A stretch of 35,394 nt of DNA, taken from IMG/VR virus record IMGVR_UViG_3300005265_000046, positions 1-35,394 of that record, one strand, 5' to 3'. The notes below the pieces were generated by a model that had not been told where the DNA came from, made no database searches, and saw only the letters and a list, made by a program, of their open reading frames with translations. A program made the translations under genes and the position numbers. Source of the DNA: a virus. Positions 6,540 to 25,174 of the stretch are shown here, in pieces; the first letter of the stretch is position 1, and every line of letters begins with the position of its first letter.

Positions 6540-7382
6540 TCAGCAGGGGGAGTATGCCTGGAAAGTGTTAAAGGAAACTTCCTGTTTAAATTCCAATGGG
6601 ATACGGTTGATGAAAACGAAGCATTCTTTCGCCAGCTCACGATCAATCATAAACCAGTTGTTGCTGTCGGTTAAATAGCTGCTCACAATAACATCATACT
6701 TCCCTCTGAAGAAGTTATCTGTATTGTGTGCATCATCAACCTTGTATTTAGAATTGGTAATCTCCCACGCTGTCTGCTCCAGATTGCGGGGAACCAGTAA
6801 AGTATCAGGATGAACGCCAATCTTATTGTTCTGGTCGTCCCTGAAGTCCATCATCGCAATTCTGGTTGCCTCTACTGCTGTAGAAGTCAAAGCAGTAGTG
6901 CCTTTGTTGTCCTGCGTAGAAGAAACAGCGTTGCTCGGATGAGCATCAGAACACAAATATTGCCCATCTCCCCCGCTTTGGTAAGCAGGGTTGCTGGAAA
7001 AAGCATCATTAAACAAAGATGCCTTGTGTTTCTCTCGGGTTCTTCCGCCTGCTCTCCCCAGACCTGCTGGCTTGCGTTTCATCAGGCCGTATAAATCATC
7101 ATCGTAGAGTTTCCTTTCAATGGTAAACTTGCCAGCATATTCTTTGGGGGTAATAGTGGTATCATACCCCTGATAACTATCTAATGCTGTCAAAGTTCCA
7201 TTGAATTCAGGAAGGTCAGGGAATGAACCAACTTCGCTGTATTTTTCCTCAGATTTCTTTGATGTTTCCATAGCGAATAATTCGTTCAATTCCTCTGGAA
7301 TGGCTTTATATTTGTCAAAGAAAACCTTGCGGAAAATTGGCGTTAATAAATCACCAAAACTTTCACTTGTTGCAATTGCCAT
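6540..7382 (-). CDS. Major capsid protein, HK97-fold (Mu gpT-like)
   Basis: This 280-residue protein comes after a TAGGAGGTGG site. An N-terminal helical arm (FGDLLTPIFRKVFFDKYKAIP) is followed by the domain with TPKEYAGKFTIERKLYDDDL. Then come a Gly/Ser loop, a spine helix (TAVEATRIAMMDFRDDQNNKI) and LLVPRNLEQTAWEI, the signature seen in Mu gpT-type major capsid proteins, with FFRGKYDVIVSSYLTDSNNW and a FMIDRELAKECFVF strand. Gene order scaffold - decoration-like protein - capsid fits a head module. Its closest relatives cannot be determined here. Confidence 0.85.
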   Translation of the reverse strand: MAIATSESFGDLLTPIFRKVFFDKYKAIPEELNELFAMETSKKSEEKYSEVGSFPDLPEFNGTLTALDSYQGYDTTITPKEYAGKFTIERKLYDDDLYGLMKRKPAGLGRAGGRTREKHKASLFNDAFSSNPAYQSGGDGQYLCSDAHPSNAVSSTQDNKGTTALTSTAVEATRIAMMDFRDDQNNKIGVHPDTLLVPRNLEQTAWEITNSKYKVDDAHNTDNFFRGKYDVIVSSYLTDSNNWFMIDRELAKECFVFINRIPLEFKQEVSFNTFQAYSPC

Positions 7383-9525: not shown

Positions 9526-9750
9526 CTATATTTTTTGCCTTAATATCTGCCTTGCTCTTTCCCAAGTATCAAAGCAAGCCAAATGATATAACCACTTGCC
9601 GTCATTGTTGCGGATAGAACTTTTAATATCCTTATCCGCCTGGGCCTGCGCCTGCAGGAACCTCCTCTCCAACACCTCTATTCCCGGATGTCCCTTCAGG
9701 TCTGCCAGCCATCTCGCCTCTATTTTCGCTTGCTTCTGCTGAATATTCAT
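9526..9750 (-). CDS. Small protein overlapping the portal gene's 3' end
   Basis: This 74-residue helical protein (MNIQQKQAKIEARWLADLKG; ends ERARQILRQKI) begins 119 bases inside the portal gene in another reading frame, after a GAGGCGTAA site. Its last 35 codons lie outside the portal gene in otherwise gene-free DNA. That and its plausible composition argue for a real gene. A portal-associated or scaffold-assisting role is a guess. Confidence 0.5.
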   Translation of the reverse strand: MNIQQKQAKIEARWLADLKGHPGIEVLERRFLQAQAQADKDIKSSIRNNDGKWLYHLACFDTWERARQILRQKI

Positions 9751-11806
9751 TTACGCCTCTTTGTGCCAATTGTGCTTGAAACTGTTGCTGCATTTGCCGC
9801 AAGGATAACTCTTGCGTTTCAGCAATGTGCTGCAACAGCAACGCCTGATAATTAGGGGGGGCTTGCTTAAATCTATCAGTCTGCACCTGAGCGGCGTGCG
9901 CCACCAAGTGCTGCATAGCATTTTCTTGAGGGGATACCTCCACCCGCCTCCCTGCCATCATTGCGTTAAATTCTTCTTCGGCATCTTGGTTAATTGTCGG
10001 CAGGCTTTCCGGTCTGGAGCCTATATATTTCTCTGGGTTCTCTTCGCCAAGCGCTTCCAGATAATCAGCCCGCAATTGCCACATTCTGGCTGGGTCAACA
10101 TTCACAAGCGGGTCGGCTATTAACGCTTGGTATTTTGCTATCATCATCTCTTGCTTAATCGCCAAATTAGCCGCCTCCATATCCACAATTAGATAAGCAA
10201 AATGCTGACCGATAATATCCCGTGCAGATAATCCCTCCGGGAATATCTGTTTGCCATCTTTGCCAACAATCGTTTCTGCCATACCAGGGGGCATATTCTC
10301 TTCGTAGAGCATTTTCAAGCGAGTAAGCAAATCAGCAACTATTCTGGCTACTCGTTTTGCGAGCAGGTTAAACTTTTGTTGCCCCTGCTGGATAATTGCC
10401 ATTGTCCCTGTGGCTGTCGCTCTGGTTTTGATGACATCGCTCTCCATGCCCGCCTGGTAAGCGCTAACGGAAGTCAATCGCTCTATTAAACCAAGAATAA
10501 CACGTTCTTCCTGGAAGGAATACTGAATGGCATTGGTAGAAATAGTTGGTATTAAAACATCATTTTTAGGGTCATCAGTAGGAATACACTGCGTTGGTCC
10601 CCATAGATGTTGCTCAGGGTCAAACCCCGAAGCAGGGCGATAAAATACAGGAGGAGCAATAGCAATGCTCCCTGCATCTACCCTCTGGTTATGAATAGCA
10701 TCCATCAACTTCTGAAGATGGCGCATTTGCTCGGGAACGCTTTTGCCGTAAATACTGCTACCTCTTCTAAAAAATGGTCTAATCAACCAGGGGCGGGTAT
10801 TAGTCTTGCTTCGGGCAACCAATGGATAACCTGAAAGGTAGGTCTTTGTTTCCCCGCAAACAAGAAATACGCATTCTTCCTCTACGCCGTCATCGTTATA
10901 ATCATACTTCCCATACCATTCCAGAAGTTCTGGCGAGTAGCGCCTGGTTTTTGCTGAAACCTGCATTAGCCCTGCGGCATCTAAACGGCTTCTTTCTGTG
11001 CCCTGCTTTTTTATAACAATTTCTCGCAAGGCTGATTCAAATTTCTCATCTATGTTCTTTATCAATTTTTTAGCCTGCATCTCCTTTAACTGCGAGTATT
11101 TATAATAAGTGAGATGTATAATGCTGTCGCAGGATTGCTCATCTTTTGCGTCATAGGGGAAGAGGCAGTTCTCCACAGGCACAAATTCCAAAGACGGGTT
11201 TTCAAAGATCTCTCTTTTAACTCTCTCCTCGTAAATTGTTTCTCCTGTTATTTCGTCTATATCCGTCTGCTCAACGGCTATAATATCCTTTTCCTGCCTG
11301 TCCCAAAACAGCTTTATGATGATAATCCCATCAATGAGCAACTGGTGGAGCAAAATATCTATAAAATCGTGCAATCCCTGGCGGTCTTCGTATATCTTTG
11401 CCTGCTCACATACCCAGCGCATAAATTTCCGCACTGCATTAACAGTCAAACCAGACGCTTTATTTTGCGGCCACCAATGGATGGCATCAGTATTCCAAAC
11501 CAACGGGAACAATTTTGCAGCCAGCAAATCAACTACCGCAGTGGTAACCATAGTGGAGATATTGCTGCAATTTTGCCAGGGCAAGTTTTTAGGCTCACGG
11601 ACGCCTTCGTAAAGTTTTATACTCTCCTTGCGGAGTTCCATATACTCCCTGCGAGAGCCCTCATAGTTCTCCTTATCAGCCAGAACCATCTCCACAATCT
11701 CCTGCTCCCGTTTTTTGCTGAAGTTGAACTGCAGAGATTGGTTTTCTTCCTTTTCGGCTTCGGAAACCTCCACTTTTTTTCTTTTGAAAAAATCTTTTAT
11801 TGCCAT
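9632..11806 (-). CDS. Portal protein
   Basis: This is 724 residues from ATG 11806, in a TGATG overlap with the upstream stop. It has the layout of podovirus-type portals: an N-terminal charged arm, a YEGVREPKNLPWQNCSN entry, an alpha/beta wing with VPVENCLFPYDAKDEQSCD, then RPWLIRPFFRRGSSIYGKSV and the long stem helices (MRHLQKLMDAIHNQRVDAG). A GTMAIIQQGQQKFNLL helix leads to a crown with QEMMIAKYQAL. The C-terminal ~70 residues are Gln/Ala-rich (QQQFQAQLAQRG) and disordered, ending GAGPGG. It forms the dodecameric DNA-entry ring with the terminase downstream of the same operon. Confidence 0.85.
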   Translation of the reverse strand: MAIKDFFKRKKVEVSEAEKEENQSLQFNFSKKREQEIVEMVLADKENYEGSRREYMELRKESIKLYEGVREPKNLPWQNCSNISTMVTTAVVDLLAAKLFPLVWNTDAIHWWPQNKASGLTVNAVRKFMRWVCEQAKIYEDRQGLHDFIDILLHQLLIDGIIIIKLFWDRQEKDIIAVEQTDIDEITGETIYEERVKREIFENPSLEFVPVENCLFPYDAKDEQSCDSIIHLTYYKYSQLKEMQAKKLIKNIDEKFESALREIVIKKQGTERSRLDAAGLMQVSAKTRRYSPELLEWYGKYDYNDDGVEEECVFLVCGETKTYLSGYPLVARSKTNTRPWLIRPFFRRGSSIYGKSVPEQMRHLQKLMDAIHNQRVDAGSIAIAPPVFYRPASGFDPEQHLWGPTQCIPTDDPKNDVLIPTISTNAIQYSFQEERVILGLIERLTSVSAYQAGMESDVIKTRATATGTMAIIQQGQQKFNLLAKRVARIVADLLTRLKMLYEENMPPGMAETIVGKDGKQIFPEGLSARDIIGQHFAYLIVDMEAANLAIKQEMMIAKYQALIADPLVNVDPARMWQLRADYLEALGEENPEKYIGSRPESLPTINQDAEEEFNAMMAGRRVEVSPQENAMQHLVAHAAQVQTDRFKQAPPNYQALLLQHIAETQELSLRQMQQQFQAQLAQRGVNEYSAEASENRGEMAGRPEGTSGNRGVGEEVPAGAGPGG

Positions 11807-11970
11807 CACTTACTCTTCTTGGCTTTTATGGGATAACAAACAGTCCTGCCACCCCGCTTTCCTGCTTTTCTGGTAACTGCGCAACGCAAAGTTTTCCCAT
11901 CTCTCTTAATAACTCTCCAACGAACTGCGCCTCCTCTTGCTTTTATCTTGCGTTCTGCACTTGCTGGCAT
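11806..11970 (-). CDS. Small basic hypothetical protein
   Basis: This is 54 residues from ATG 11970 after an AAAGGGGGAAT site; an extension to 11997 would start inside the previous gene. It is very basic, with KIKARGGAVRWRVIKRDGKT, CAVTRKAGKRGGRTVCYPIK and an AKKSK end. The two cysteines and basic strand pattern suggest a small beta-rich nucleic-acid-binding protein. It is coupled directly to the portal start. Confidence 0.5.
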   Translation of the reverse strand: MPASAERKIKARGGAVRWRVIKRDGKTLRCAVTRKAGKRGGRTVCYPIKAKKSK

Positions 11971-12719: not shown

Positions 12720-14156
12720 TCAATACATTCCCCCTTGCGGACGATGCACTTTTAAAACACGATTGGTTGGGTTGTCCATTATTACGTATCTTGCGCAATC
12801 AGGGAAGTGCTTGTATTTCTCCTGCGGGCGCTCCTTCTGGGATTTAGTGTCCTTGCCCGCTTTCCAATCCTCATACATATAATGCGTCATTCCGTAAATC
12901 GTATTCTGCAAATCATCAAAGAAATATAGTTTAGGGTGGTTTCTCTCATCTATGGGCTTTGTTTCATCATAGTTTAACCACTCCCGAACTTTCTTATGCC
13001 CCGCAGGTATATCATCATTGGCGGGAGCAAATCTCATCGGGTATCCCTGCAGTCGGCTTTCTATTTCGTATTCCTCCTTAACTGTTCTACCAGAGTTGCC
13101 ATAGCGCTTCAAGCCGAAATTCGGGTCAATCAACCGCCGTGTTGCTCTACCATATTGGCGCTCTTTCTCAATTATCCGCTTTACAGTCTCTTTTGTCAAA
13201 TCAGTAGAAAAATCCTCATCGTAAAAATATAAATCACCTGTTGGGTCAAGAGCCGCCCACACCATAGCATTGGGCTGCCTGTCGTGTGGGTCAATAGCCA
13301 TCCATCTCGGCCAATGTTTCGGTATTGCAAAACGAGGTATTGTGTGTATCCCTCTCTTAAATTTTTTATAAACCAGCCCCCGCAGATACATAGGCCGCCC
13401 GTGCTGCCTCGCTTCCCTCTCCTCGTCATCATACGCAGAAATCATCTTCACAATATCTTCGTGCCTGAGGATGCCTCTGACGCCGTGCTCAATACAATTA
13501 TCCTCAATATCGGCATACAATATCTTCGCATCCATATCCGCCCGCTCAAAGAGAAACGCCGATTTCTGCAAAGGGGCGAGGGTTATAAAAATCTTCCCCC
13601 CAAACCTAAAACGGGCAACAGAGGCATTAAAAATTGTCTCTGGGATAAAATCGTCCATCCACAGCCAATCTAAAGTCGCCCCTTCAAACTGCTGTATCTC
13701 CTGTTCAGTAGTCAATAAATCAAAACTATGGGGGCCGACTTCGTATTTGCTGTAATACATCTTGCCTAATTTCCTCCGAGCATACCTATGGGGCGGGAGC
13801 CACTTCTTCAACTCGGGGTTAATGATATTGCTGATGATTTTCTCTGGGGCAATTATCCTGCCTACAAGAGGCTTCCGCCTAAACCTGCGGTAAAACGGCA
13901 AATCAAACCACTTATTCTGCGGGGACAGCAGCATATTCCCGATAAGATTGCACATTAAGGCTGTTTTCCCCACAGAATTAGCAGCGGAGAAGATGTAAAT
14001 AAACCCATCCCCAGCAGTCATTTTTACAAATTCCTCACATTTCCCGTTCGGGGTGTAATACTTCAGCGGGTTCAGCCGTTTTCGCCTCTCCAATTCTTCC
14101 TGAATATTCTCTAATTCTTTCAAGGAGTTCAATTTGTCTTCTCTCAAGTTCTTCAT
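12720..14156 (-). CDS. terL: Terminase large subunit (packaging ATPase/nuclease)
   Basis: This 478-residue protein has an N-terminal coiled-coil leader, then the ATPase. Its adenine/Walker A segment is IFSAANSVGKTALMCN (deviant P-loop, about 54-69), Walker B is LDWLWMDDF (about 160-168) and motif III is FITLAPLQKSA. The RNase H-like nuclease half has WMAIDPHDRQPNAMVWA (first Asp), ATRRLIDPNFG (second Asp) and a final HFPDCARYVIMD acidic cluster. The start overlaps the previous gene by 122 bases in another frame with a GAGGATGAGCG site. It drives DNA translocation at the portal. Confidence 0.9.
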   Translation of the reverse strand: MKNLREDKLNSLKELENIQEELERRKRLNPLKYYTPNGKCEEFVKMTAGDGFIYIFSAANSVGKTALMCNLIGNMLLSPQNKWFDLPFYRRFRRKPLVGRIIAPEKIISNIINPELKKWLPPHRYARRKLGKMYYSKYEVGPHSFDLLTTEQEIQQFEGATLDWLWMDDFIPETIFNASVARFRFGGKIFITLAPLQKSAFLFERADMDAKILYADIEDNCIEHGVRGILRHEDIVKMISAYDDEEREARQHGRPMYLRGLVYKKFKRGIHTIPRFAIPKHWPRWMAIDPHDRQPNAMVWAALDPTGDLYFYDEDFSTDLTKETVKRIIEKERQYGRATRRLIDPNFGLKRYGNSGRTVKEEYEIESRLQGYPMRFAPANDDIPAGHKKVREWLNYDETKPIDERNHPKLYFFDDLQNTIYGMTHYMYEDWKAGKDTKSQKERPQEKYKHFPDCARYVIMDNPTNRVLKVHRPQGGMY

Positions 14157-17944: not shown

Positions 17945-18080
17945 GAGCTTCTCCTACCATCCAAATTTTCTGCATTCGACCGCACGAACTACACCGCACA
18001 TACCAAAAAATGTTTCCGTCTTTTTCTTCTACCTTCTCACGGAAAACCAAAGTTCTCCGCCCACAGTGCTTACATTTCAT
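17937..18080 (-). CDS. 47-residue zinc-ribbon protein
   Basis: The ATG at 18080 overlaps the end of the primase-helicase gene. The sequence MKCKHCGRRTLVFREKVEEK, then VRCSSCGRMQKIW, has two CxxC knuckles 27 residues apart, a standard ribbon. It ends over the nuclease start. It could bind single-stranded DNA or RNA. Confidence 0.6.
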   Translation of the reverse strand: MKCKHCGRRTLVFREKVEEKDGNIFWYVRCSSCGRMQKIWMVGEAHA

Positions 18081-19749
18081 CTCCCTCAAATCGCTTATCA
18101 TCTCTTGCCTCCGCATATTTCTGGCTCATTGGATTAAACAAAAATCTAATCTTCCCACCAACAGCTGAATCAGCCCGCACTTTTTGAATATCCGCAAAAA
18201 CTTCATATATCTGCTCTTTCTCCTCTTTTTTTCTATTCCGCCAAAGCATAATAATATTATCCGAATTTTGTTTTATAGCTGATGAACCCTTTAAATCATT
18301 CATTTGAACATACCCCGTTTCATTTTTCAACTTGTGAGGATGTGCTACCAACAAAATATTCATTTTAGTCTTCTTCGCTACATCTACTATCCCACGCATA
18401 AATTGCTCTATCTCATATACTTGCTTATCTACGCCAGGTGGTATAAAAAAATGTAAATGGTCTAAAAGAGCAAACCGCACATCAAATCTATTATTAACAT
18501 AAATTAAATATTCGCTTATTTTTTCTATACTCAGCTCTTTTGTTGTTTTCACAAAAAACAATTTTCTACTCCCAAAAAAACTCATACTTTCCAACATCTC
18601 TTCTCTGCTTAAAGTATAAAACGCCTTCTCGCAATACATAGCAAACAACTTTGCAACAAGAGCTTTATTGCTCATTTCATTTGAAAAAAATATCCAAGCT
18701 TCTCCTTGATTTAACAACTGGTAAACCAAATTCATAGCGAATGTTGTCTTGCCAGCGGCAGTCTCCCCAGAAAGAACCGTGACCTCGCCTTCCCGCATTC
18801 CTCCGAATGCAAAGGTAAAATTTCCCCAATCTGTTAATGGTTTTCCCTTTAAACTCTCTCCTTTCTCCCACAATGTTTCAAGTTCGCCCAAAACTTCACT
18901 AATGTGAATTATGCCTGGTAATTTATACTCTTCTGCTTGTTTAAAAAATATATCTAAATCCTCTTTTTTCAAACCAGCCATTAAACAATCATTAAAATCC
19001 TTAAATGGCAATTTTACTCTTTTGCATCGTGCAATGCCTAACTTTTCTGCTACCTTCTTCGCTCCTTTTTCTCCTGCTTTATCTTGGTCAAAACAAATAT
19101 AAATCTCTCCAACATTCTCAAAAAAATCAATCCATTCATTATCAAATCCTCCCGCCCCTGTAGAAACTGACAGAACGTTCTCAAAACCCATTTGAACAGC
19201 AGAAATGCAATCAAATTCTCCTTCAGTTAACAACACTGGCTTACTTGTATCCAAATCATCAACATTAAAAAGCGTCGATTGGCAACCTTCTTCTCGATAA
19301 TAACCTTTTTTTTCAATCCACCGAAACTTATAATTAACCAAAACTCCCTTCTGATAATACGGAATTGTTATTCTTTGTTTATCATAACCAAGTTTAAATT
19401 TCTTGATAATTTCCATTGTAAAACCCCGTTCGTGCATAAGATAATCTAGCGCTCTTTCATTCTCCAAAAGTGCTTTATGATACTCCTGGTCACTGTCTTT
19501 CACTGGCCGTTTATATTCCTCCTGCTGGGGGACAATTTTCTGAATGTTAATATCCCCGTAAAATTTCTTCAACTTCCAGATATTCCCAGTCTCGTTGCAA
19601 ACCCAACATCGCCAAACTCCTTTCTCTGGATTAACCGACAAATGCTGTGGCTTCCCACAAAAAGGACAATCCGTAAGATATTCTGAACCCTGCTGTTTAA
19701 AGTGACAACCTTTAGTCTTTAAATATTCTACTATGTTTTGCTCTATCAT
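18070..19749 (-). CDS. Replicative primase-helicase (T7 gp4/Twinkle-like)
   Basis: This 559-residue protein has an N-terminal zinc-binding domain: CPFCGKPQHLSVNPEKGVWR then CWVCNETG. The TOPRIM primase core is PVLLTEGEFDCISAVQMGF and IYICFDQDKAGEKGA (DxD). The C-terminal DnaB-type helicase has Walker A VTVLSGETAAGKTTFAMN (about 325-342), LLDHLHFF as Walker B, and LVAHPHKLKN...LKGSSAIKQNSDNI as the H4/arginine region. It is linked to the upstream initiator by an ATGA overlap. It unwinds DNA and primes the lagging strand; no DNA polymerase gene accompanies it. Confidence 0.9.
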   Translation of the reverse strand: MIEQNIVEYLKTKGCHFKQQGSEYLTDCPFCGKPQHLSVNPEKGVWRCWVCNETGNIWKLKKFYGDINIQKIVPQQEEYKRPVKDSDQEYHKALLENERALDYLMHERGFTMEIIKKFKLGYDKQRITIPYYQKGVLVNYKFRWIEKKGYYREEGCQSTLFNVDDLDTSKPVLLTEGEFDCISAVQMGFENVLSVSTGAGGFDNEWIDFFENVGEIYICFDQDKAGEKGAKKVAEKLGIARCKRVKLPFKDFNDCLMAGLKKEDLDIFFKQAEEYKLPGIIHISEVLGELETLWEKGESLKGKPLTDWGNFTFAFGGMREGEVTVLSGETAAGKTTFAMNLVYQLLNQGEAWIFFSNEMSNKALVAKLFAMYCEKAFYTLSREEMLESMSFFGSRKLFFVKTTKELSIEKISEYLIYVNNRFDVRFALLDHLHFFIPPGVDKQVYEIEQFMRGIVDVAKKTKMNILLVAHPHKLKNETGYVQMNDLKGSSAIKQNSDNIIMLWRNRKKEEKEQIYEVFADIQKVRADSAVGGKIRFLFNPMSQKYAEARDDKRFEGDEM

Positions 19750-20453
19750 TTAATCCCCGCTTTCGCTTTTTCATAATCATCTTCGTAAATTTTTTCTGGT
19801 TTTCCATCTATTTTACTCTGTTTTTTCTTTTCCTCGTAACTTTGCCAAGTAATTATTTTCTGCTTCCAGTTCCGCACTTTATTCCCCTTGCTATCTATCC
19901 AATTTGCTTCCTGGAAATAATCGTAAAATCTCTGGGGAGATATAGAATATCCTTTTTCAGTAATATATTTTTTGACTTCTTCCAGAGTGGGGGGGATGAA
20001 TTTTTTTCCCCTCTCTCTATCTTTTGAATAAATATCTTTTGTAGTATCTTTTGAGGGTATCTTTTTGGATAACGATTTGTTATCTTTTTTGATAACGCTT
20101 GTTATCTTTTTTGATAACGCTTTTCCACTTGTTATCTTTTTTGATAAAGGTTTCCACATTTCAAAATCCTTATTAAATATATACTTATGCCCATTCGCAT
20201 TATCTTTTTTGATAATGATTAAATTCATCGTTATCAATTTGGATAACGCTCGTAAGATATTAGGCTTCTTAAGGTTAGTGCCTAAAACAAATTGAGAAAG
20301 TGGTATTCTATCCTCTTTCTTGTGCCACCCCCAAGTTTTACGAATTATAAAATCTAATACTTGCCGAGCCTCACCAGGAATTCTAATTTTCGCTAATGCT
20401 TCCATAACATTGGGGTTTATTTTTATAAATTTATCAGGTTGCACATCAGCCAT
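19746..20453 (-). CDS. Replication initiator, lambda O / replisome-organiser type
   Basis: This is 235 residues from ATG 20453 (MADVQPDKFIKINP). The N-terminal ~95 residues are a Phage_rep_O-like winged helix (VMEALAKIRIPGEARQVLDF, KTWGWHKKEDRIPLSQF). A linker with repeated LSKKITS units is encoded by the DNA iterons themselves. The C-terminal FIPPTLEEVKKYITEKGYSI plus RFYDYF and NWKQKIITW resembles the tail of DnaD/replisome organisers. It would bind its own internal iterons and load the helicase. Its start codon lies behind an attenuator-like stem overlapped by a leader ORF. Confidence 0.8.
   Translation of the reverse strand: MADVQPDKFIKINPNVMEALAKIRIPGEARQVLDFIIRKTWGWHKKEDRIPLSQFVLGTNLKKPNILRALSKLITMNLIIIKKDNANGHKYIFNKDFEMWKPLSKKITSGKALSKKITSVIKKDNKSLSKKIPSKDTTKDIYSKDRERGKKFIPPTLEEVKKYITEKGYSISPQRFYDYFQEANWIDSKGNKVRNWKQKIITWQSYEEKKKQSKIDGKPEKIYEDDYEKAKAGIK
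20057..20247 (-). repeat. Replication origin: six palindromic iterons inside the initiator gene
   Basis: Six 17-18-bp units of the form GTTATC-N6-GATAAC lie at 20057-20073, 20079-20096, 20101-20118, 20131-20148, 20199-20216 and 20230-20247. Three are identical or nearly so (GTTATCTTTTTTGATAAC). AT-rich DNA lies between and to the left. Iterons inside an O-type initiator gene are the lambdoid origin arrangement, so this is very likely the replication origin. Confidence 0.85.
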
Positions 20454-20619
20454 TGGTGTTGTTCCTAAAAAAATAAAAAGCCCCATTGGAGAAGCACCCC
20501 GCAACATTTAAGCTATTTTCGTAGCCAGCCGTTGTTTTACTTGCTCCAAATGGGGCTAATTGTTTTTTGAACAAAAAAATGGCCCTATCTTTCGTTGCGG
20601 GGATTTTTGTATGCATTTT
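20449..20619 (-). CDS. Leader ORF of about 56 codons over the attenuator
   Basis: An ATG at about 20619 follows AAAGGAGGCG. The frame MHTKIPATKDRAIFLFKKQL runs across both arms of the stem-loop system and ends in a TGA that overlaps the initiator ATG by a few bases. So ribosomes translating it would open or block the hairpins and re-initiate on the initiator. It may be a regulatory leader peptide or a small protein. Confidence 0.5.
20467..20602 (-). promoter_or_regulatory. Attenuator-like pair of mutually exclusive stems before the initiator gene
   Basis: On the minus strand, arm A (20594-20602, CCCCGCAAC) can pair with A' (20497-20505). Arm B (20540-20557) can pair with B' (20479-20494, sharing GGGGCT/AGCCCC and CTCC/GGAG). 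The order is A-B-A'-B', so forming one disrupts the other. The B-B' stem is followed by TTTTTATTTTTTT (20467-20478), an intrinsic-terminator signature. It would control read-through into the replication genes. Confidence 0.6.
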
Positions 20620-20787: not shown

Positions 20788-20815
20788 ATTATACAAAATA
20801 ATCCATTATTGTCAA
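20788..20815 (-). promoter_or_regulatory. Consensus sigma-70-type promoter of the replication operon
   Basis: On the minus strand TTGACA (20810-20815) and TATAAT (20788-20793) are perfect hexamers with a 16-base spacer. The expected start is near 20781, the ATG of the RHH gene. The -35 box is the edge of the 59-bp repeat. Confidence 0.8.
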
Positions 20816-21428: not shown

Positions 21429-22163
21429 CTATTTCTTCTCCAAAAACTCCCATACTTTCTTCACCGCTAAAAAAACCTCAAAATTATTCTCAATCTCCAT
21501 CCAAGTGTATTTCCCATCTGGCTGTAGATGCAAACCTGCCAGTTGGTCTATGCTTCGGAATAAATCTGGGGCGCTTCCCATTTCATCTACCGCCACCTTG
21601 TAGGCAGATAGTTGCAGAGATAATTCAATAGGGTATAAGTTCTTCCCTGTTTTTATATCCACTAAAAACAACTTCTTTTCAATCTCACAGGTAAAATCCA
21701 AGCGCCCAGCGTAACCATACCTTTTGGAGTATATTACCTGTTCGGTCAGCAAAAACTCCGGTTTCATTGCCTCCTGCCAACTCAAGAAGGCCTGGGCGTA
21801 ACCTCGCACCTCACTGGGCAATCCTGCTATGTCTATCTTTGCCTCTTTGGTATAGGCCTCTATCAATGAGTGGACACAACTTCCCTTGTTGCCTGCAGTG
21901 TCACGGATTTTATATGTCCCCGCTATCGCCTCTTCCGCAGTTAGAGTGGGGTTATCAAGGGCAATTTCGGCTGCTTTCTTTGCCATCCAGTATCGCAAGG
22001 CAGGTTTTGCAAGAACAGTATTGATGATGGTGGTTACAGAGGGAAGCTTCCTTGTCTCTCCGTCAATTTTCAGATAATACCAACCGTTCCGGCGGGGGTA
22101 TTCTTTGTTGTAGTCTTCAATTGTTTTCTTCGTTTCTTTCTCTCCAAATAAATCCTTCATCAT
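21429..22163 (-). CDS. RecB/Cas4-like PD-(D/E)XK exonuclease
   Basis: This 244-residue protein has an N-terminal helix-rich part (KLPSVTTIINTVLAKPALRY, AGNKGSCVHSLIEAY: the G-S-x-x-H motif I). Then comes YAGRLDFTCEI (catalytic Asp), LFLVDIKTGKNL (Asp-x-Lys) and IELSLQLSAYKVAVDEMG (QxxxY motif). This is the PDDEXK_1/RecB-like set used in phage recombination or DNA processing. The four-cysteine cluster of Cas4 is absent. It is encoded just before the OB-fold-like protein. Confidence 0.85.
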   Translation of the reverse strand: MMKDLFGEKETKKTIEDYNKEYPRRNGWYYLKIDGETRKLPSVTTIINTVLAKPALRYWMAKKAAEIALDNPTLTAEEAIAGTYKIRDTAGNKGSCVHSLIEAYTKEAKIDIAGLPSEVRGYAQAFLSWQEAMKPEFLLTEQVIYSKRYGYAGRLDFTCEIEKKLFLVDIKTGKNLYPIELSLQLSAYKVAVDEMGSAPDLFRSIDQLAGLHLQPDGKYTWMEIENNFEVFLAVKKVWEFLEKK

Positions 22164-22761: not shown

Positions 22762-23418
22762 TCAAGGCAGCCACTCACTCAACGATTTCGCCAGTTTTTT
22801 CTCAACCTTTGTGAGTTCTTTTGCATTGCGGTGTATTTCCCTCAGGATACGCCACGCTTTCTTCAGCTCCCCTTGGAAGAGCGTCTTCCAGTAATCCTCC
22901 CAAAGAATGTCAATCTGTTTATGAAGAATTTTGTGGCGGGTAAGCAATTTATGGCATTTCTTTCCTTGTGTTAAAGCTTTCCCTACTTTAACTGCCCCTG
23001 GCGTGCTTGTGATTGTTTTGGTGGTAACGCCGCCAAGCAAAGGCAAGGTTGCGAGGTCAACTATTTCCAGTGGGGTTGGTTGGGTAATTTTTTCAGGGAG
23101 AAAAAAATCTTTTGCTTTAGCTGTAAGGGGGTCATATCCTATCCCGCAGATGCCTGGGGAAGTATTTTTGAAAAGTTGGTAACCGCTCTCTATTTGCTGG
23201 ATAATGGGGTCATTCTTGTCAACAAATACTATCGGTTCATCGGCTTTCTTGACAGTAGCAACAGCAACAGAAGTAAGGCACTCACGAGTAATAGTTTGGT
23301 TTGCAGCAGCATTGGTAATAAGAATATCCTGCGGCGCCTCTGCGAAGGCAGGATAACTCCCTATCAGTAGGTAGAAAATTACGGCAGAAATTTTCCCTAT
23401 GCGGCGTCTATGTTCCAT
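22762..23418 (-). CDS. Secreted early protein with signal peptide
   Basis: This is 218 residues from ATG 23418 (MEHRRRIGKISAVIFYLLIG), with a GGAGGTGCAAG site; a longer frame to 23457 lacks one. A typical signal peptide (Arg-rich n-region, hydrophobic core, SYPAFA cut site) is followed by a periplasmic or extracellular domain with three or four cysteines and a long amphipathic helix near the end (LKKAWRILREIHRNAKELTK). Second gene of the earliest operon, so it may act on the host envelope, for example superinfection exclusion; that is inference. Confidence 0.65.
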   Translation of the reverse strand: MEHRRRIGKISAVIFYLLIGSYPAFAEAPQDILITNAAANQTITRECLTSVAVATVKKADEPIVFVDKNDPIIQQIESGYQLFKNTSPGICGIGYDPLTAKAKDFFLPEKITQPTPLEIVDLATLPLLGGVTTKTITSTPGAVKVGKALTQGKKCHKLLTRHKILHKQIDILWEDYWKTLFQGELKKAWRILREIHRNAKELTKVEKKLAKSLSEWLP

Positions 23419-23463
23419 CTTGCACCTCCTCTTCTTTGTTGCTAACAAATTGTTCACATGGGC

Positions 23464-23619
23464 TCATATTTCGCTCCGTGGTTTTTTATAACATTTCTTT
23501 ATTGCTTCTTCCGTCAACAATTGAAAAGATTTATCTGTTTTGCGTTTTGCTTCCAGTAAAATCTCCCAACTCTCACGGGAGAGATTTACTGCTTTTCTCG
23601 GCTTTAGTTTAATTTTCAT
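23464..23619 (-). CDS. Ribbon-helix-helix regulator (first copy)
   Basis: The ATG at 23619 follows ATAGGAGGTG. The 51-residue sequence MKIKLKPRKAVNLSRESWEI, then a helix-turn-helix of the RHH kind (LLEAKRKTDKSFQLLTEEAI), places it in the CopG/Arc superfamily. It is first in the operon behind two promoters and next to the 59-bp repeat, so it likely regulates one or both repeat-bearing promoters. Confidence 0.75.
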   Translation of the reverse strand: MKIKLKPRKAVNLSRESWEILLEAKRKTDKSFQLLTEEAIKKCYKKPRSEI

Positions 23620-23639
23620 TTTTTTCACCTCCTATAGCA

Positions 23640-23668
23640 AGTATACCATATCCTTTGTAAAATTTCAA
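23640..23668 (-). promoter_or_regulatory. Proximal promoter of the early operon
   Basis: On the minus strand TTGAAA (23663-23668) and TATACT (23640-23645) are separated by 17 bases, each one mismatch from the sigma-70 consensus. The expected start lies just before the ribosome site of the RHH gene at 23619. Confidence 0.7.
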
Positions 23669-23691
23669 GTTCTTGTTTTTCTGACAAACCC

Positions 23692-23720
23692 ATTATGCCA
23701 AATTTTGAGTTGGCTGTCAA
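23692..23720 (-). promoter_or_regulatory. Distal promoter of the early operon
   Basis: On the minus strand TTGACA (23715-23720) and CATAAT (23692-23697) have a 17-base spacer. The -35 is the end of repeat copy 2, so this is the exact counterpart of the promoter at 20788-20815. Confidence 0.75.
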
Positions 23721-23773
23721 ACCTCATTTAACCCAGTATTCTCCAATTTTCTGCCCTTTTTCTGCCAAATGCT
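23715..23773 (-). repeat. 59-bp direct repeat, copy 2
   Basis: It is identical to 20810-20868 and ends at the same point of the -35 box. Beyond 23773 the two loci stay weakly alike for about 40 bases (GCTTC, CAAG-CTT), suggesting a larger duplicated control module that has diverged outside the 59 bases. Confidence 0.85.
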
Positions 23774-23817
23774 CACTTATGCTTCTTTTTTCGTAAAAGT
23801 TTACCCTTCATCAAGAC

Positions 23818-23846
23818 TTGACAAGATTTCCAAAATGTGGTATATT
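23818..23846 (+). promoter_or_regulatory. Strong plus-strand promoter
   Basis: TTGACA (23818-23823), 17-base spacer, TATATT (23841-23846). The predicted start is about 23853, six bases before the first hairpin. It is the only convincing plus-strand promoter I found and points away from the early operon. Confidence 0.75.
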
Positions 23847-23852
23847 ACAATC

Positions 23853-23946
23853 AACAATAGGTCTGAAGGCATTAAAGCCATTTCCTCAGAGGTTTGAGGA
23901 TGCCTTCAGACCTGAAAACTCAAACCTCTGACAAAATGGCTTTTTT
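23853..23946 (+). ncRNA. Short plus-strand RNA with two mutually exclusive stems and a terminator
   Basis: Arm A (23859-23872, AGGTCTGAAGGCAT) is perfectly complementary over 14 bases to A' (23900-23913). Arms 23874-23883 plus 23887-23898 pair with 23934-23943 and 23919-23930 (10 + 12 bp with a 3/3 internal loop), and this second stem runs into six T residues (23941-23946). The arms interleave (A-B-A'-B'). The RNA either folds as A-A' or as the terminator; in the latter, A' is displayed in a 20-base loop. Behaves like a regulatory sRNA or an attenuator for the RNA beyond 23946. Confidence 0.75.
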
Positions 23947-24274
23947 GCTCTCTGGTCGTTAAGCAATGTGCTTGGACTAACCACCCAAGTGTCAACGTAG
24001 GTAAGGGGGGAGTTTGACCAACTCTCGCTACGGACTTTCAGCCGACCGACGCCTCAAAACTTGCGTTTGAGGGCTGACGCTAATCTACTTGTTGAGGAGC
24101 AAGAACTCCAAGCGGGAACTCCATCCTTAACGGAGCAGGGTTTTTGGTGTCCTGGGTCGGAAGTGTGGAGGGTAAGGAGCCTTCCCGCCAAAACACCAAC
24201 CACTTCTATTTTTCTCACCTTCGTAACCACAGGGTTACTTTAGCCTTCCTCTGCCTAAAACTTGCGTTTTTAGG
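23947..24274 (+). ncRNA. Gene-free, densely folded segment, candidate structured RNA
   Basis: No convincing protein frame. Many local stems can be drawn on the plus strand: CGTAG/CTACG enclosing GAGTT/AACTC, CCTCAAA/TTTGAGG (24052-24072), CTTG-GGAG/CTCC-AAG, CTCC/GGAG with loop ATCCTTAAC, CAGG/CCTG, TTGGTGT/ACACCAA, and CCTAAAA/TTTTAGG (24254-24274). The first and last named seven-base stems share the loop core CTTGCG. It is downstream of the plus-strand promoter and terminator, so would be made only on read-through. An IS605-type end was considered and not proven. Confidence 0.45.
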
Positions 24275-24276
24275 AC

Positions 24277-24349
24277 AATTCTAAAACTAGAACAGTTCTA
24301 AAACCAAGTTTAATCCAGTTCAGGACAGTTCTAAATTAAAGTTCTAAAA
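24277..24349. repeat. TTCTAAA repeat cluster
   Basis: Four TTCTAAA(A) units at 24277-24286, 24293-24303, 24326-24335 and 24339-24349, plus a partial CAGTTC at 24316. One pair forms a perfect 13-base palindrome (TAGAACAGTTCTA, 24288-24300). The spacing and palindrome look like protein-binding sites (operator or secondary replication site). No such cluster occurs elsewhere in the window. Confidence 0.6.
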
Positions 24350-24422
24350 GTGAAAAGAAGAAGTTGGAAAAATGCGAAAGGCGCCCTTTGATTTTTGTCT
24401 GGAAGTTGGTGGCAGTAAACAA

Positions 24423-24453
24423 TAAAAAAGCCCCCTGATGTTTATCAAGGGGC
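24423..24453 (-). terminator. Intrinsic terminator of the late (ejection) operon
   Basis: On the minus strand GCCCCTTGAT pairs with ATCAGGGGGC (one bulged base) around a short loop and is followed by TTTTTT. It lies 32 bases past the stop of the last gene at 24485. It ends the whole circular run of minus-strand genes just before the control hub. Confidence 0.85.
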
Positions 24454-24484
24454 AAACTGCAGAGCAAAACTAGTGCTTTATTCC

Positions 24485-25174
24485 CTATTCGTATTCCACA
24501 ACAATTTTGCAGTCATATACTTCCTTATGCACTATCCCTTTTTCAGAAGGTATAATAAGAAATGCCTTTTCTAGCTTTTCTCCAGTGTTCATTTCTTTGT
24601 TCACTTCTTCCTCCGCAATTGTTCTGTCGCCAACTTGCAGATACACCTTTGACAGTTTAATTTTTTTATCAAAGTTGTTTTGCAGAGAATAATTTATTTT
24701 TATTTCCTTGTCTGCGTCTTCTATTTTATTCGCAGGGGTAATATACACTTCCCCAGGAAAATACAAGCCTATGCCTTTTAGCGCTTTAATGGTTACAGCT
24801 CTTTCCAAAACTTTCCCTGGAAGTTCCTTGTCTTTCCCATAAACATATAAAACCGCTTTAAGGTTTATATTATACGTGCCTGCGTCTTTTATCCCAGCTT
24901 CAAGCAAAGTAAACGATACGCAATATGTGTCTTTTTTGTGCCGTTTTAATACGTGTGCGCCAGGGTCTTTGCGCAAAAAAACTTTTCCATCTTTTTCAAG
25001 CTGAATTTTCCCCAAAAGGATAGCTTTGCTGCCGACCGTGTTGTTTTCTAAGACAAATTTTAGGTCTATTGGGGTATCTGCGTATTCAACCTGGCTTGGG
25101 CATTCTAAATCGTCAATGCAGAACTCAACATCCTCTAAGCACTCTAAAGTAAACTCTTTTGTTATTGTATTCAT
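24485..25174 (-). CDS. Two-domain Ig-like beta-sandwich protein
   Basis: This 229-residue protein appears to contain two Ig/arrestin-like sandwiches: residues about 1-125 (IDLKFVLENNTVGSKAILLG, VSFTLLEAGIKDAGTYNINL) and about 130-229 (IKINYSLQNNFDKKIKLSKV, YDCKIVVEYE). No signal peptide. The last gene of the ejection block before the terminator; it may be a virion protein or an accessory that binds host surface. Domain boundaries are estimated by strand pattern. Confidence 0.5.
   Translation of the reverse strand: MNTITKEFTLECLEDVEFCIDDLECPSQVEYADTPIDLKFVLENNTVGSKAILLGKIQLEKDGKVFLRKDPGAHVLKRHKKDTYCVSFTLLEAGIKDAGTYNINLKAVLYVYGKDKELPGKVLERAVTIKALKGIGLYFPGEVYITPANKIEDADKEIKINYSLQNNFDKKIKLSKVYLQVGDRTIAEEEVNKEMNTGEKLEKAFLIIPSEKGIVHKEVYDCKIVVEYE

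Follow-up and report, generated by a model that had tools for sequence, protein, structure and literature searches.

The locus at positions 23818-23946 raises the question of whether a phage whose plausible genes all read in one direction also carries, on the opposite strand, a gene for a small RNA that can fold in two ways. The window is the whole 35,394-base virus record IMGVR_UViG_3300005265_000046, whose source type is a tailed phage. Every plausible gene in it lies on the minus strand, including those for a capsid protein (6540-7382), an SU10-type portal (9632-11809), the large terminase (12720-14156), a primase/helicase (18070-19749), replication protein O (19746-20507) and an exonuclease (21429-22163). 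A perfect 12/12 promoter (TTGACA-16-TATAAT) stands at 20815 on the minus strand and precedes the replication genes. Within the replication protein O gene, positions 20058-20157 hold tandem repeats of TATCTTTTTTGATAACG that resemble the iterons of the lambda origin.

About 850 bases separate the end of the right-hand (structural) operon from the start of the left-hand operon, and the predicted RNA locus lies in this gap. The right-hand operon is closed by a minus-strand gene of unknown function (24485-25174) and ends at a minus-strand intrinsic terminator (24430-24453). The first genes of the left-hand operon include those at 23464-23628, which encodes a 54-residue small protein, and 22762-23457, both on the minus strand. 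Two minus-strand promoters, divergent from the locus, precede this operon: TTGACA-17-CATAAT at 23692-23720 and TTGAAA-17-TATACT at 23640-23668, each with the TG extension.

The promoter of the locus reads along the plus strand at 23818-23846. It is of the sigma-70 type and scores 11/12, with a -35 hexamer TTGACA (23818-23823), a 17-nt spacer, a -10 hexamer TATATT (23841-23846) and a TG ahead of the -10 hexamer. This is the only plus-strand site in the window that scores at least 11/12; three others score 10/12. Its extended -10 element, TGG, is common to both divergent minus-strand promoters (23720 and 23668). The near-consensus promoter opposite to all genes, as it was described in the original prediction, is thus present. 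A transcript from this promoter would start at about 23853, 7 nt past the -10 hexamer.

Downstream of the predicted start, four arms follow one another along the plus strand in the interleaved order A-B-A'-B'. The original prediction of a perfect 14-bp stem overlapped by a 10+12-bp stem with six T residues agrees with what is found. Arm A (23859-23872) pairs with arm A' (23900-23913) over 14 bp, all of them matched. Arm B (23869-23898) is the 5' arm of the terminator stem, and all of it except the first bases falls within the A-A' loop. Its partner, arm B' (23919-23948), is the 3' arm recovered by both the stem search and the fold. The two 30-nt arms are 87% complementary, and arm A' lies inside their loop. 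The lower part of the B-B' stem has 9-10 bp (AAAGCCATTT/AAATGGCTTT), the upper part has 12-13 bp (CAGAGGTTTGAG/CTCAAACCTCTG), and the stem ends in the T6 run of a predicted intrinsic terminator (23941-23946). When the arms are read on the minus strand no T run follows them. The presence of T6 on the plus side only argues for an RNA rather than a DNA palindrome, and the one-sided T run together with the shared extended -10 element favours a plus-strand RNA.

This arrangement is rare by chance. The RNA from 23855 to 23950 folds at -41.4 kcal/mol, compared with -20.7 +/- 3.5 kcal/mol for 200 dinucleotide shuffles, none of which folds as well (0/200; z -6). Of the shuffled windows, 1% contain a 14-bp inverted repeat that is perfect and has a loop of 40 nt or less. 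The window has one case of interleaved perfect stems, 9 bp or longer, followed by a T tail, and the nine phage sequences searched (299,629 bases) contain a single other interleaved-stem match, of 9/11 bp, at position 10752 of a related phage (L003). That match is read as an artefact of A/T runs.

Folding of successive prefixes of the growing transcript separates the two stems in time. The A-A' hairpin is complete at 23914, with an energy of -31 kcal/mol, and the A stem has a probability of 1.0 for transcript ends from 23910 to 23938. It is the sole probable fold until about 23938-23939, the two folds are near balance at 23940, and B-B' has a probability of at least 0.98 from 23942 onward. The favoured fold therefore switches just as the T run is made. 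At full length the energies are -35.2 kcal/mol for B-B' and -30.2 kcal/mol for A-A', and the same order of folds is computed from 20 to 70 C. The RNA folding check proposed with the original prediction thus gives A-A' first, with B-B' taking over at about 23939-23942.

The competition between the two folds is sound. The claim that one fold excludes the other holds for nested folds; it does not hold as an absolute, as a partial pseudoknot that combines A-A' with the lower part of B-B' only is geometrically conceivable. For nested refolding from A-A' to B-B', a barrier of about 29 kcal/mol was computed on the path found. Such a barrier would favour read-through, unless refolding is aided by strand exchange via a pseudoknot. 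The real barrier may fall below this value, because B' can start to pair with the A-A' loop as a pseudoknot while A-A' frays.

The locus is best explained as a tailed-phage gene for a short non-coding RNA that terminates its own transcription and has bistable folding, a prediction that is given about an even chance. The predicted RNA of about 94 nt (23853-23946, plus strand) is delimited by the promoter and the terminator. Intrinsically terminated phage small RNAs have a promoter of their own and an intrinsic terminator within about 50-200 nt, and no evident coding frame; the predicted RNA fits this pattern, with a length of about 94 nt and no frame led by a ribosome site. Host RNA polymerase with the main sigma factor would start at about 23853. 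The first 60 nt are computed to form A-A' while the RNA is emerging. After synthesis of B', the stable fold is computed to be the B-B' hairpin, which is longer and, with T6, would end the transcript at about 23946. Since A-A' must open first, termination is probably delayed or incomplete, and the main product would probably be about 94 nt long, with some transcripts running further. In the released RNA, A would be unpaired at the 5' end and A' would lie in the loop of the terminator; this RNA may act in trans, its target being an RNA or a protein of the host. Of the switch described in the original prediction, the bistable self-terminating RNA is retained, with its promoter, competing stems, T6 and swap of folds; the wording of a "designed on/off switch" is not.

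The region downstream of the RNA offers little for it to control. On the plus strand downstream of the RNA, no reading frame preceded by a ribosome site was found, so a stand-alone RNA is a simpler reading than a leader, and the attenuator half of the original prediction is weakened. The folded region that was said to lie beyond the stems is not clearly above shuffles on the plus strand, with z -0.5 for 23950-24270 and z -2.1 for 23950-24420. A large structured downstream RNA is accordingly unsupported on that strand, given the z of -0.5 for 23950-24270. No plus-strand terminator is called between 23950 and 25300, and later terminator-like matches on this strand are no more numerous than in shuffles. 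Any read-through to 25300 would therefore run antisense into the structural operon. Promoter-like sites on the minus strand are absent from 23950-24400, and a 9/12 site at 24448 is the only one nearby. Across 44 phage genes, no start region pairs with the RNA or its free parts better than with shuffled RNA. Antisense action on the phage's own messages was set aside, as the best pairing equals the shuffled-RNA level.

Several sequence features lie in the block downstream of the RNA. Two hairpins (24057-24068 and 24258-24269, in the stretches 24053-24073 and 24253-24273), 201 bases apart, have the loop AAACTTGCGTTT in common, and compensating changes distinguish their stems (CCTCAAA/TTTGAGG and CCTAAAA/TTTTAGG). 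On the minus strand at 24267-24305, GTTTTAGAACTGTTCTAGTTTTAGAATTGTCCTAAAAAC resembles the type II-A CRISPR repeat of S. pyogenes. The local score is 21, compared with 16 or less in 2000 dinucleotide shuffles and 14 or less in eight other phage sequences. This stretch could be a repeat mimic like those named Racr (PMC10651486). A 17-bp tandem repeat and TTCTAAA boxes, which may be operators, overlap it. A comparison of the downstream boxes with tracrRNA is negative.

A single relative was found, the phage IMGVR_UViG_3300005265_000083 (L003). The two genes that flank the gap are 85-87% identical in this phage, with 87% for the adjacent protein. The stretch 22762-25174 and L003 share 82-89% identity with the middle exchanged, as in a mosaic module, and there is little other DNA similarity. 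The equivalent of the left-operon promoter at 23692-23720 is retained in L003 at 10915-10943. The whole block is missing: a different sequence stands between the flanking genes, with no plus-strand promoter and no comparable stems. Its absence from the one relative found suggests that the element is dispensable for phages of this type. In the window, the GC content of 23875-24250, within the block missing from L003, is 0.49-0.52, compared with 0.415 overall.

Other searches for relatives are negative. Searches with the exonuclease and portal return no relatives, searches with two adjacent unknown proteins return one phage only (L003/L006, the same contig), and no prophage relative is found in the genome collection. 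Pattern scans of viral contigs with the arms and the downstream stretch, and of genome contigs with the downstream stretch, find no relative; these scans depend on exact words and might miss members that have diverged, and records that lie very close to the window may have been hidden from them. A blastn search against phages and plasmids also finds no relative. In the window, nothing reaches the Rfam gathering score, and the weak matches are to micro-RNA-precursor models, on the long hairpin only and far below gathering scores. Membership of a known RNA family was rejected on this lack of a match. A plus-strand frame at 23990-24240 seemed to resemble the C-terminus of TnpB and was considered as a transposase end; it was rejected, with no Pfam or plasmid match and with empty scans of viral and genome contigs.

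Among the rival explanations, an attenuator like that of pT181 is possible but unlikely. In such an attenuator A-A' would be the default anti-terminator, allowing read-through, and capture of A by an antisense RNA, a protein or another signal would let B-B' stop transcription. The read-through RNA would be antisense to the right-hand structural operon and would delay its expression. The A-B-A'-B' order and the T run fit the anti-terminator/terminator logic of pT181 (PMC4878617), A-A' is finished before B' exists and faces the nested barrier given above, and plus-strand terminators are lacking as far as 25300, with later matches at the level of shuffles. However, the downstream region provides no plus-strand gene with a ribosome site, no good minus-strand promoter close by for an antisense regulator and no clear plus-strand structure, and the stems do not match the pT181 ctRNA family. 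A kinetic version, in which the nascent A-A' permits read-through by default into an RNA antisense to the whole structural operon, and in which capture of A by a signal brings termination back and frees the late genes for expression, is decidedly unlikely. The palindromes and repeats could instead form a DNA-level element, a site for protein binding or for replication or recombination, with the promoter and T run incidental, which is also quite unlikely. The block does carry four TTCTAAA boxes (24279, 24296, 24329 and 24342), the 17-bp tandem repeat and the twin hairpins with an identical loop, and it stands in place of a different block in L003. The T run, however, is one-sided and lies exactly where a terminator requires it, the promoter comes close to consensus, has the right spacing and carries the extension seen in the neighbouring promoters, and the iteron-like repeats in the replication protein O gene are a more obvious candidate for an origin.

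An ordinary strong terminator behind a promoter would give short, futile divergent transcription that acts through promoter interference or control of supercoiling, with no role for A-A'. The divergent promoters at 23720 and 23668 are about 100-150 bp away, as this would suppose, but termination does not require the interleaved perfect 14-bp stem, which would arise in 1 window in 100, and the explanation is very unlikely. Least probable is that the locus is left over from a mobile element or from a plasmid copy-control RNA. Absence of the block from L003 and its higher GC content are consistent with such an origin, but the plus-strand frames tested have no Pfam match to a transposase end, no plasmid match is meaningful, and the stems have no Rfam match to a ctRNA.

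The predicted self-terminating RNA can be compared with three known systems. In the repC leader of the Staphylococcus aureus plasmid pT181, a sequence made early sequesters the 5' arm of an intrinsic terminator (PMC4878617). The present locus likewise has two competing stems, a putative anti-terminator and a predicted terminator with a T run. Unlike pT181, it is followed by no replication gene or other gene, and it has no detected promoter for an antisense RNA and no Rfam match at the stems. IsrK of the Gifsy-1 prophage has its own promoter and terminator, alternative structures, and short terminated and read-through forms; it continues into orf45-anrP, with whose transcript it pairs (PMC4825925). 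The predicted RNA has a similar layout, phage-borne with its own promoter and terminator, but no sequence kinship; it is not followed by a frame led by a ribosome site, and no partner for pairing was found. The OOP RNA of phage lambda is a short RNA with promoter pO and terminator tO that runs against the main operon and overlaps cII by 52 bases (PMC5869508). The predicted RNA is also short, with its own promoter and terminator, and is opposed to the operons. It has no sequence kinship with OOP and, unlike OOP, is intergenic and overlaps no gene. The locus thus resembles pT181 on paper but lacks a downstream gene, and its layout is that of OOP and IsrK, so it is filed as an orphan self-terminating small RNA.

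On the best reading, the locus encodes an orphan small RNA, about 94 nt long, with no homologue found in the collections searched and no phage target that beats chance. If expressed, it would provide an unusually clean natural pair of long folds, close in stability (-30 and -35 kcal/mol), whose exchange takes place only a few nucleotides from the point of termination. It would then be a handy test case for co-transcriptional folding and for strand exchange at a terminator. It would also be a candidate regulator in a group of phages with almost no known relatives.
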